DNA of 64,000 nt from Nodosilinea sp. E11 (GTDB lineage Bacteria; Cyanobacteriota; Cyanobacteriia; Phormidesmidales; Phormidesmidaceae), in assembly GCF_032813545.1 (NCBI RefSeq), contig NZ_CP136520.1, positions 3,900,001 through 3,964,000 of the forward strand. The letters run 5' to 3'. How positions within the stretch are numbered: position 1 is the first letter of the stretch; each line of letters starts with the position of its first letter. Below, one piece after another: positions 8,378 through 43,080 of this stretch. Position numbers and translations under genes: made by a program. The notes beneath the pieces are model-generated. The model was not told where the DNA came from and did no database searches. It saw nothing but the letters and a program-made list of their open reading frames with translations.

Positions 8378-8418
8378 GTAGGGGCAAATGGCTAGGGCAA
8401 ACGACCGTTTGCCCCTAC
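8378..8418. repeat. Hairpin repeat unit between the YbaY-like and DUF192 genes
   Basis: Perfect 11-bp inverted repeat, GTAGGGGCAAA (8378-8388) and TTTGCCCCTAC (8408-8418). A nested alternative stem is GGGCAAACG (8395-8403) with CGTTTGCCC (8406-8414). It shares the AAACG..CGTTTGCCCCTAC core with the dispersed element copy at 40853-40960 and the hairpin at 41067-41098. It sits in the 8197-8463 spacer, which otherwise shows nothing recognisable. Confidence 0.65.
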
Positions 8419-11516: not shown

Positions 11517-11778
11517 GCCCATTGGCTGATTAAAAACATAAATCTCTCGCTCACTCGACCCCAAACAATTCCTTTCTATTTTAGTTAAGGTTCGTTCTGG
11601 CGGACCTAACCTAGCTGATCGGCACCTTACCGATAAACCTCCTTACCAACCCATGAGCGCGGCTCCCATCTCAGCCTTGACCGTCCATCTGAGACTCAGC
11701 TGGGCCATCCGAAAGTCATCTAAATTGATTCATGACTGATTCATGCAGGCTAGGATGGGCCTCTGACTGGGCTATCCC

Positions 11779-11883
11779 CGATTCCCCTGGGCGAACCGCC
11801 GTAAGGCCTCCGGCCAGGCTATGCCAGCGCCCCTACAGGTTGACCGGTTGGCTATTGGGGGTATTAGGACTCGGATTCGGTAT
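11779..11883. repeat. Dispersed intergenic element, copy B (left end degraded)
   Basis: Shares GCGCCCCTACAGGTTGACC, GGTTGGCTATTGGGGGTAT and the right end CGGATTCGGTAT with the full copy at 42462-42566. The left inverted end is not recognisable here. It is oriented the same way as copies C to F. Confidence 0.7.
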
Positions 11884-23426: not shown

Positions 23427-23506
23427 TAACCAAGGTGGCGAAAGGCAAAGGCATTCACCATTGTAACAATCTGGCAACCTGCTCTCAGACTTCTGTTTAT
23501 CAGGTA

Positions 23507-23610
23507 ACACTAAATCCTGTTTAGTTACCCCCGGTTCAGACGGGCGCATGCCATGCGCCCCTACGATTTGGCCGGTTGGGAATTGGGGTTATGCAATTCG
23601 GATTGGGGAT
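23507..23610. repeat. Dispersed intergenic element, copy C
   Basis: Reads ACACTAAATCC at the left, GTTACCCCCGGTTCAGACGG, a hairpin core GGGCGCATGCCATGCGCCCC, TTGGCCGGTTGGGAATTGGG, and ATTCGGATTGGGGAT at the right. About 104 bp, colinear with the copy at 42462-42566. It sits between ftsW and ccdA. Confidence 0.75.
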
Positions 23611-23620
23611 AAAACGTGTT

Positions 23621-38255: not shown

Positions 38256-38288
38256 AAAAGCTCGCCACAACTGTGGCGAGCTTTTCTG
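38256..38288 (+). terminator. Rho-independent terminator of the atp operon
   Basis: AAAAGCTCGCCACA (38256-38269) and TGTGGCGAGCTTTT (38272-38285) form a perfect stem, followed by TTTTC, 27 bp after the gamma stop codon. Confidence 0.9.
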
Positions 38289-38293
38289 GTTGT

Positions 38294-38362
38294 GGCTACC
38301 CCTGATTCAGCAGGGCGCACTGCGGTGCTACAGGTTGGCCGATGGGAAATCGGATCCGGTAT
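38294..38362. repeat. Dispersed intergenic element, copy D (internally shortened)
   Basis: GGCTACCCCTGATTCAGCAG, GCACTGCGGTGCTACAGG, TTGGCCGATGGGAAATC and GGATCCGGTAT. It matches the left-centre and the right end of the copy at 42462-42566, with about 20 bp missing before the right end. It lies between the atp terminator and the glycosidase-like gene. Confidence 0.7.
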
Positions 38363-40852: not shown

Positions 40853-40960
40853 CATCCGAAAGCCTACTTGGCTAACCCCCGGTTGGGCTGAGCAAACAAC
40901 CGTTTGCCCCTACGCAAGCTCCGGTTGGGAATCGGGGGGGATGGAATTTGGATTGGGCAG
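40853..40960. repeat. Dispersed intergenic element, copy F
   Basis: CATCCGAAAGCCTACTTGG at the left aligns with CATACCAAATCCTGCTTGG of the copy at 42461. The centre is replaced by the AAACAACCGTTTGCCCCTACG hairpin type, and the right part GGTTGGGAATCGGGGGGG, ATGGAATTTGGATTGGG matches again. Confidence 0.7.
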
Positions 40961-41066: not shown

Positions 41067-41098
41067 TCGTAGGGGCAAACGGCTGGTTGCCCCTACGA
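41067..41098. repeat. Perfect 12-bp hairpin TCGTAGGGGCAA
   Basis: TCGTAGGGGCAA (41067-41078) and TTGCCCCTACGA (41087-41098) with an 8-base loop. It shares the GTAGGGGCAA arm with the hairpin at 8378-8418, so it is probably a short, independent member of the same family. Confidence 0.7.
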
Positions 41099-41168: not shown

Positions 41169-42167
41169 TTAGCTGTGGCGCTTTTGATGCCAGGCCCAGG
41201 CATGGGTCAAGATGGTGTCGATATCGGCATACTGGGGGTTCCAACCCAGAATGCTGCGGGCGCGATCGCTGCCTCCCACCAGCGCAGGCGGATCGCCGGG
41301 GCGGCGATCGACTTCGACCACCGGGATACTCTTGCCGGTCACCCGTACCGCCGCATCAATCACTTCCCGCACCGAAAAGCCGTTGCCGTTACCCAGGTTG
41401 AAGACGTTGCTCTCGCCTCCCTTGAGCAGGTATTCCAGGCCCAAAATGTGGGCATCGGCCAGGTCGCAGACGTGAATGTAGTCGCGCACGCAGGTGCCGT
41501 CGGGAGTGGGGTAGTCGGTACCAAAGACGCTGATCGACTCCCGTTTGCCCAGGGCTGTTTGCAGCACTAACGGAATTAGGTGGGTTTCTGGGTTGTGGTC
41601 TTCGCCCAGCAGGCCACTGGGGTGGGCACCGGCGGCGTTGAAGTAGCGAAAGCGCACCGATCTAAAATCGTAGGCTTTGTCGTAATCGGTCAAGATGCGT
41701 TCCACCATGAGTTTGGTGGCCCCGTAGGGATTGATCGGGTTTTGAGGATGGGTCTCGGTAATCGGCATTTCCTCAGGAACGCCGTAGGTGGCGCAGGTCG
41801 AAGAAAACACGAAATTTTTGATGCCCGCCTCTACCATGGCATCGAGCAGCGATAGGGTGCCGACCACATTATTTTCGTAGTACTTAGCGGGGTTGCTCAC
41901 CGACTCGCCCACGTAGGCGTAGGCCGAAAAGTGCATTACCGCGCTGATGTTGTAGCGGCTAAAAATATCTTTGAGTAGACCTTTATCTAAGGTGCTGCCC
42001 TCAATCAACTCGGCTTTGAGTACAGTTTCGACCAGATCGCGGTGACCGTAGACCAGGTTGTCTAAAATCACTACCTGATAGCCCGCCTGCTGGAGGGCCA
42101 TGACGGCATGGCTGCCAATATACCCCGCCCCGCCGGTCACAAGAATGGTGTTTGCGTCAGTTTTCAT
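41169..42167 (-). CDS. galE: UDP-glucose 4-epimerase
   Basis: A 332-residue extended SDR that interconverts UDP-glucose and UDP-galactose for envelope polysaccharides and galactolipid-type sugars. NAD-binding motif TGGAGYIGSH, catalytic Ser/Thr in FSSTCATYG and YxxxK in NPYGATKLMVE, then RYFNAAGAHPSG and DGTCVRDYIHVCDLADAH, all GalE hallmarks. ATG 42167 (MKTDANTILVTGG) is the natural start; the upstream extension of the frame is not conserved-looking. Stands alone between repeat-bearing spacers. Confidence 0.95.
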   Translation of the reverse strand: MKTDANTILVTGGAGYIGSHAVMALQQAGYQVVILDNLVYGHRDLVETVLKAELIEGSTLDKGLLKDIFSRYNISAVMHFSAYAYVGESVSNPAKYYENNVVGTLSLLDAMVEAGIKNFVFSSTCATYGVPEEMPITETHPQNPINPYGATKLMVERILTDYDKAYDFRSVRFRYFNAAGAHPSGLLGEDHNPETHLIPLVLQTALGKRESISVFGTDYPTPDGTCVRDYIHVCDLADAHILGLEYLLKGGESNVFNLGNGNGFSVREVIDAAVRVTGKSIPVVEVDRRPGDPPALVGGSDRARSILGWNPQYADIDTILTHAWAWHQKRHS

Positions 42168-42582
42168 AGAAAATATCTCTAACTTAGGATGGGAAAAGTA
42201 AGTGCTGGGGCGTTTGGCCTGCCCTGTCATAAAAAATGAGTTAGCAGCCATTCTAAAGCTTGGCTAACCCACTGACTTCACCCCAAGAGACTAAGTCATG
42301 AATTTTTCATCTCTACTCGCGACCGCCTCATAGAATCTCGCCCTGGGGCTGAAGGGAATGCAATTTGCATTAAGCAATTTTTAATTAAAGCTCAGCAGGC
42401 TCGTAAAGTCGGCTGGAGGCTGTCTAACAAGCGATCGCTTCTATGCTGAAAAGGGGGTGTCATACCAAATCCTGCTTGGTTACCCCCGATTCCGGCAGGG
42501 CGCATGCCATTCGCCCCTACGAGTTGGCCTGTTGGGAAGCGGGGGTATGGAACTCGGATTCGGTATCAACCCGTCTGGCATT
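42168..42582. other. Spacer between galE and the VOC gene, with element copy E
   Basis: About 415 bp without a gene. The right quarter is the full-length dispersed element (42462-42566); the left part holds the galE upstream region, AT-rich around 42360-42390. Confidence 0.6.
42462..42566. mobile_element. Dispersed intergenic element, full copy E (MITE/REP-like)
   Basis: 105 bp bounded by ATACCAAATCC (left) and GGATTCGGTAT (right); the two ends are inverted repeats with one mismatch. Between them are GGTTACCCCCGATTCCGGC, an imperfect hairpin GGGCGCATGCCATTCGCCC, CCTACGAGTTGGCCTGTTGG and GGGGGTATGGAACTCGG. No coding capacity and no obvious target duplication. This is the reference copy for the family in this window. 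It ends 17 bp from the VOC gene stop. Confidence 0.7.
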
Positions 42583-43017
42583 TTACTCGGCATCTCCCAC
42601 TTGCTGCTGGTCGATCTCGCCAAAGATGGCCGTGGGATGGCAGTAGTACTTAAACTCCAGCAGGTTGTAGAACGGGTCTTGCAGAAAGAACGTGCGGTGC
42701 TCTAAGGTGCTGCCCGTAAACCGCCGCTTTTCGTTTTGATAGAAGGTAAGGTTTTTTGTCTTGGCTTGATCTAGCAGCGCCTCCCAATCGGCCTCGGCCA
42801 TAAACACCAGGCCAAAATGGCGGGGGTAAATGCCCTTTTGAGGCACCAGGTCGGGGGTTGTGTGAGCTACTAGCTGGTGGCCATACAAGTTAAGGATGAG
42901 AGAGTTAGCGGTTTCGCGCCCTGGCTGGCAGCCTAGCCCTTCCACATAAAAGGCTTTAGCGATCGCAATATCGGCGACGGGAAAGGCGAGATGAAACAGG
43001 ACAGCGGCAGAATCCAT
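42583..43017 (-). CDS. VOC-family (glyoxalase/dioxygenase fold) protein
   Basis: A 144-residue protein with paired beta-alpha-beta-beta-beta modules: VLFHLAFPVADIAIAKAFYVEGLGCQ and RHFGLVFMAEADWEALLDQA. His in FHLAF, His in HFGLVF and Glu in LLEFKYY are at positions used as metal ligands in this superfamily. RTFFLQDPFYNLLEFKYY is a typical end. ATG 43017 is preferred to GTG 43047. The reaction is not predictable; the sequence is closest in style to the dioxygenase-like group. Confidence 0.87.
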   Translation of the reverse strand: MDSAAVLFHLAFPVADIAIAKAFYVEGLGCQPGRETANSLILNLYGHQLVAHTTPDLVPQKGIYPRHFGLVFMAEADWEALLDQAKTKNLTFYQNEKRRFTGSTLEHRTFFLQDPFYNLLEFKYYCHPTAIFGEIDQQQVGDAE

Positions 43018-43080
43018 AGAGGGTGGTAGAGCGCAGTAGGTAGACACACAGCGGGACAGGGGCTAGAGCTAGCCATAGTA

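Follow-up and report, generated by a model that had tools for sequence, protein, structure and literature searches.

The window that we analyzed, a 64-kb stretch of the Nodosilinea sp. E11 genome, contains a galE-like and a glyoxalase-like gene (41169 to 43047; named from their translations), which are the neighbors around a short repeat on the forward strand at positions 42463 to 42565. This repeat is a complete unit of 103 bp, with the ends TACCAAATCC and GGATTCGGTA and a central hairpin of the GGGCGCATG type. The three bases TCA adjoin it on the left (42460 to 42462) and again on the right (42566 to 42568), both read on the forward strand. The original prediction had placed the copy at 42462 to 42566, with the inverted ends ATACC...GGTAT. 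The ends are indeed inverted, but the extent needed correction: the outermost A and T are part of the TCA duplication, which shortens the ends to TACC...GGTA.

At least five colinear copies had been predicted in the window. We read each of the five named and searched the window, together with 38 other stretches of the E11 genome, with an iterated profile; all five proved to be members of one repeat family (E = 3e-27, 2e-25, 4e-12, 1e-11, and 3e-7; the value for the copy at 42463 is 3.1e-27). The same search of the window found no sixth copy at an E value of 1e-3. The other four copies also read on the forward strand. The one at 23508 to 23609 (102 bp) is complete, with worn ends, and is flanked by TAA at 23505 to 23507 and TAA at 23610 to 23612. 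A decayed copy at 40855 to 40959 has worn-down ends, a hairpin of the GCAAAC type, and the flanks TCA and GCA. The copy at 11762 to 11882 has a long center and an unrecognizable left end, while its right end reads GGATTCGGTA, followed by TGA. Finally, the copy at 38284 to 38361 is damaged by an internal deletion and is without a left end; its right end reads GGATCCGGTA, followed by TTA. As far as the lists of open reading frames (ORFs) show, all five copies lie outside genes, as had been claimed.

The repeat family is a MITE, a nonautonomous transposon of about 103 bp, and not a REP or IS200/IS605 element. The unit reads TACCRAATCC...GGATTYGGTA and has a duplicated TNA on either side. From left to right, TACCRAATCC is followed by a left arm, which has the box ACCCCCGA about 20 bp in; after the central hairpin comes a right arm, with this box in reverse, and the unit closes with GGATTYGGTA. 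Most units of the collected set were 101 to 104 bp long, and those of the long-center type were 126 to 127 bp. The family has the features by which MITEs are recognized: a short, noncoding unit with terminal inverted repeats that is present in many copies, a target-site duplication (TNA), and ends in common with a probably autonomous element, the IS described below. Folded as single-stranded DNA, the whole unit was weakly better than its shuffles (z = −1.79). Rfam gave no matches in the 64-kb window at the gathering score.

Further copies, expected elsewhere in the genome, were found, with at least 40 BLAST matches and 135 exact ends. A BLAST search with the best copy gave 40 scored places out of 171 first-look candidates in the 6.1-Mb E11 genome, a lower bound on the copy number, and the end pattern TNATASYRAATCC occurred 135 times in the genome versus 3 times for the reversed pattern. 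Among relatives, the MITE was matched in 16 of the 28 genomes sampled and in 2 of 12 genera (15 genomes of the same genus and 1 of another). No match was found on plasmids (E value of 1e-5) or phages (E value of 0.01). The freshest copies were those of genome G007, which are nearly identical to one another in different surroundings; a transposase must therefore have been active there recently. A strict pattern for the whole MITE found nothing in G007 because the left ends there read TACTAAATCC, and it was a looser end pattern that found these copies. Among the papers listed when the open-access literature was queried with the end and hairpin strings of the MITE, the titles look unrelated.

The MITE copies are surrounded by a 3-bp TNA duplication, and the suspicion that target duplications would be found was thus borne out. 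Among 42 copies found with the profile, the middle base was equal on both sides in 30 (shuffle mean, 11.7; maximum of 20,000 shuffles, 27). A stricter E11 set of 43 end pairs, which includes a few overlapping or spurious pairs, had TNA on both sides in 28, and the middle base was equal in 22 of these (shuffle mean, 7.7; maximum, 17). In G007, 24 of 25 exact end pairs lying 95 to 97 bp apart agreed in the middle base when compared by eye, the exception being on contig C508. This agreement, together with the near-identical G007 copies in differing surroundings, shows a 3-bp target duplication and recent spread.

Empty sites had also been looked to as support for mobility. We found a clean one for the partner IS (see below) and none for any MITE copy. 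At 42463, the glyoxalase-like gene was matched in relatives and the galE-like gene lay elsewhere, so the spacer is not orthologous. The matches to these two genes are apart in several relatives, indicating that gene order has changed near this MITE. A scan of 73 end pairs, IS copies included, gave no convincing case in which excision of a MITE restores an ORF.

The prediction that a transposase with matching ends might exist led to an IS630-like element in the E11 genome. Among the places listed, at least two exact-end pairs lie 1,153 bp apart and are copies of a 1,147-bp IS; the two are alike at 1,140 of 1,153 positions, flanking 3-mers included, and are flanked by TCA/TCA and TAA/TAA. The ends of IS copy L177 read TACCAAATCCGACTTGTATACCCCCGA and, reversed, TACTAAATCCGAGTCATATACCCCCGA; over 27 bp, its left end agrees with that of the MITE at 42463 at 23 positions and its right end at 21. 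The left box of IS copy L176 is ACCTCCGG, and the box varies in copies from other species too; the outer repeat is thus more conserved than this inner box. The transposase is encoded in two overlapping frames, with the overlap at TTTAAAAAAAC. The first frame has HTH_33 and related domains, and the second has DDE_3 (E = 8.7e-18). The second frame scored 65 bits with PF13358 (cutoff, 28.6) and 141.2 bits with the IS630 model NF033545 (cutoff, 100), a model on which the first frame alone scored 71.5, below the cutoff. Copy L176 is open, and copy L177 has a stop inside its second frame. On the strength of the shared ends, the 1,147-bp IS is likely to be the autonomous partner of the MITE, which gives a family that sits in the intergenic spacers of these cyanobacteria its likely motor.

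Of 26 genomes of the genus, 17 had matches to the transposase at an E value of 0.001, several of them distant ones only. Among named records, relatives of the partner IS occur in Nodosilinea, Leptolyngbya, Phormidium tenue, and similar cyanobacteria. One locus of cyanobacterium CCP3 (L224) holds a 560-bp deletion derivative of the IS that keeps 276 bp of the left end and 284 bp of the right end, flanked by TCA and TAA. An internal deletion of this kind may be how a MITE begins.

From sequence comparison, it is quite probable that the MITEs move in trans through the transposases of an IS630-like subgroup with similar ends. The ends have in common an outer 10-bp inverted repeat, TACYRAATCC, and, some 20 bp in, an inner box close to ACCCCCGA. 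These transposases would insert IS and MITE alike into TNA, presumably by cut-and-paste chemistry, with duplication of the whole 3-mer. The tip TA would then belong to the element and could pass for the TA duplication that is usual in IS630. The center of the MITE would be a replaceable hairpin, and the MITE itself would have arisen by internal deletion.

We do not put the role of this partner higher because several genomes lack a match to its transposase. At an E value of 0.001, there was none in the MITE-bearing sister genomes G003, G005, G012, G015, and G029, and G007 had a single match of only 32% identity. Since the G029 assembly is in 10 contigs and is rated complete, poor assembly cannot be the only reason. 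Either these genomes have lost the transposase, or a different member of the subgroup acts in them. The stop in L177, the variation of the inner box among IS copies, and the unequal flanks of 7 of 37 IS copies (see below) also weigh against the partner. It is possible, if rather unlikely, that the MITE owes its spread to a different member of the TNA subgroup, perhaps one since lost, and that it has become largely immobile in the E11 genome. The MITE-rich sister genomes without the transposase of the 1,147-bp IS would fit such a history, as would the E11 copies, which are 79 to 93% alike by BLAST, so that many must be old. The near-identical copies of G007 speak against it, in that they call for a transposase recently active there.

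A 3-bp duplication also brings another transposase family to mind. IS1031 and PIF/Harbinger, which are IS5-type groups, duplicate TNA or TWA and so resemble the MITE in this respect, while their transposases belong to a family other than that of the E11 IS. A DUF4096 locus of genome G012 (L143), an IS5-type element, has the ends GAGGGTGTTTGAAAA and a 3-bp repeat. Had such a transposase moved the MITE, its likeness to the ends of the IS630-like element would have to be convergent. We consider this improbable, because none of the transposase loci that we examined carried matching ends on both sides, whereas the IS630-like element does. The search for an IS4/IS5-type partner took in 15 PF01609 and 7 PF13586 loci of the E11 genome and 5 PF13340 loci of six sister genomes and gave no matching end pair. 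The 15 PF01609 and 5 PF13340 loci were scanned for MITE ends, with single chance end matches only, and boundaries of alike copies were compared for 12 of the 22 E11 loci, which for the PF13586 set means its three alike copies.

Two other kinds of candidate were rejected. Fifteen stretches with BLAST matches to half of the element were considered as ends of an autonomous element, and the ORFs of two of them (L126 and L128) included no adjoining transposase. A 1,508-bp end pair of G029 (L178, 1111 to 2618, flanked by TTA/TTA) holds an ISAs1-family transposase and reads like an ISAs1 element inside a MITE.

A TA target with a 2-bp duplication is treated as a hallmark of IS630/Tc1/mariner elements. 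In PMC2170065, insertion of IS630, ISY100, and Tc1/mariner is described as exclusively into TA, which is duplicated, with a few AA/TT exceptions in vitro, and a Thermus survey (PMC6352166) tabulates 2-bp repeats for ISTth6, an IS630 member that may or may not belong to the TNA subgroup. TA is present at the junctions of the E11 element too, and on the ordinary IS630 rule it would be the 2-bp duplication, the surrounding TNA being a mere target preference. Such a preference would not equalize the middle base on the two sides. We compared the flanks of full-length IS copies of the subgroup, 37 in all, drawn from cyanobacteria, Thermus, and alphaproteobacteria and falling into eight sequence groups. 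The flanking 3-mers were identical in 30 of the 37: 5 of 6 copies of the E11 IS type, 8 of 10 of a type about 50% identical to it, 4 of 4 of ISAva6, 1 of 2 from Cyanobacterium aponinum, 2 of 3 from Stanieria, 4 of 6 from Thermus, 4 of 4 of ISAzs14, and 2 of 2 from Rhodovastum. TNA stood on both sides of 36 copies, and the middle base was equal in 29 of these (shuffle mean, 9.5; maximum of 100,000 shuffles, 22). One Thermus copy was flanked by GAA/GAA. Seven of the 37 had unequal flanks, and in five of the seven (L239, L194, L283, L284, and L287), the middle bases were complementary. The count covers copies with a usable end pair and leaves aside the Thermus oshimai type, a second Thermus thermophilus type, the Microvirga type, one Rhodovastum locus, one ISAzs14 locus, and one cut Stanieria copy.

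Insertions into genes gave a second line of evidence. IS copy L176 lies inside an IS5 transposase gene, and removing the element together with one TCA restored a frame of 318 codons. Aligned with its intact relatives in Leptolyngbya boryana and Acaryochloris marina, this frame showed no gap at the junction and one far away, so the intact homologues have no extra residues at the site and the empty site is a single TNA. The 3-bp model restored 318, 114, and 757 codons in L176, L177, and L265, respectively, and the 2-bp TA model restored none of the three. At L189, the frame was longer under the 2-bp model, and this case does not decide. The reading frame fits a 3-bp duplication or none equally well, and it is the gap-free alignment at L176 that tells these apart. 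As a control, a distant IS630 element of the same genus (about 30% identical), whose ends start with AGCTGTT, had TA on both sides in 7 of 7 copies. We therefore regard it as very unlikely that the elements follow the ordinary rule.

The partner IS thus has TNA and 3 bp in place of the TA target and 2-bp duplication of IS630. Because its transposase is nevertheless of the IS630 family, we describe it as an IS630-like element with a TNA rule. A tree built from 23 DDE domains put the rows for which TNA was measured into two supported clades (95/96 and 99/97), which also contain unmeasured rows, and the one row with measured TA outside both. The tree gives no supported deep order and hence does not show a single origin of the TNA rule. 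Among titles and the beginnings of abstracts in the open-access literature, we found none that reports such a rule for IS630, although single ISfinder entries may state TNA. On balance, we think it somewhat probable that a wide subgroup of the IS630 family, with members in cyanobacteria, Thermus, and alphaproteobacteria, no longer follows the TA rule. Its members would insert into TNA with a 3-bp stagger, the TA would be the tip of the element itself, and the recorded 2-bp TA may at times have been read inside the element; its MITEs would be abundant in these cyanobacterial genomes.

Compared with ISY100 of Synechocystis and other IS630/Tc1/mariner elements (PMC2170065), the E11 IS is alike in its DDE_3 and HTH domains, short inverted ends, and junction TA, and differs in duplicating a 3-bp TNA and in having the TA in its own tip. 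ISAva6 (Trichormus) and ISAzs14 (Azospirillum), both annotated as IS630-like, have transposases about 48% and 38 to 40% identical to that of the E11 IS over part of its length; they have other end sequences and the same TNA duplication in 4 of 4 copies each. RUP, Correia, and Stowaway, MITEs associated with elements of the IS630 type, have TA duplications. The E11 MITE resembles them in being short, noncoding, and present in many copies with the ends of an autonomous element, and it has TNA where they have TA. Nezha, cited in PMC10969869, is likewise a cyanobacterial MITE. Paired with ordinary IS630 elements, the TNA subgroup would offer a natural system for learning how a transposase sets its target and stagger, and its recognition would correct the annotation of its members and their MITEs.

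The centers of the MITEs vary, as the predicted exchange of hairpins implied: several stem types occur within the same arms. In 32 of 36 units (the 43 end pairs minus 7 that were dropped), the center held a stem of 7 or more pairs with no more than one mismatch, the simple stem finder having picked the arms in a few units. The stems were of the GCGCATG (21 units), CGTAGCATGCTACG (4), GCAAAC/T (3), GCGAAT/C (3), and CATTGCAG (1) types, with 4 others. Free-standing hairpins with GCCCCTAC ends, resembling MITE centers, occur in the window at 8378 to 8411 and 41069 to 41089, and there is a looser one at about 19678. With varied stems in the same arms and lone hairpins elsewhere, the center behaves as a replaceable module, perhaps picked up from the free-standing hairpin repeats of the genome. 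REP/RAYT and IS200/IS605 elements would not be expected to duplicate their target. The REP-like look of these hairpins, also when alone, fits REP/BIME-like repeats that a RAYT or IS200/IS605 transposase spreads by way of the central hairpin, but this is highly improbable given that the unit is defined by its 3-bp duplication and terminal inverted repeats and that the ends stay while the hairpin types differ. From the initial designation "MITE/REP-like," then, the MITE part stands, on the inverted ends, many copies, 3-bp duplications, and an IS with similar ends, and the REP part is not supported, in view of the target duplication.

A longer variant of the MITE occurs at five loci of the E11 genome (L005, L042, L043, L069, and L071). 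It has an extra right-hand module with AATAACCCTGAGACGGTGCATCGC; the module closes with GATTGGTA, and TNA comes next. The TNA at the far ends of this variant was equal in three of the five copies (L005, L042, and L043) and unequal in two (L069 and L071). At another locus, L044, a stretch related to the longer variant has a different continuation. Sister genome G009 carries a 150-bp MITE of other sequence with the same ends as the 103-bp MITE, and the three copies that we fetched (L179, L180, and L181) are flanked by TCA/TCA, TGA/TGA, and TTA/TTA.
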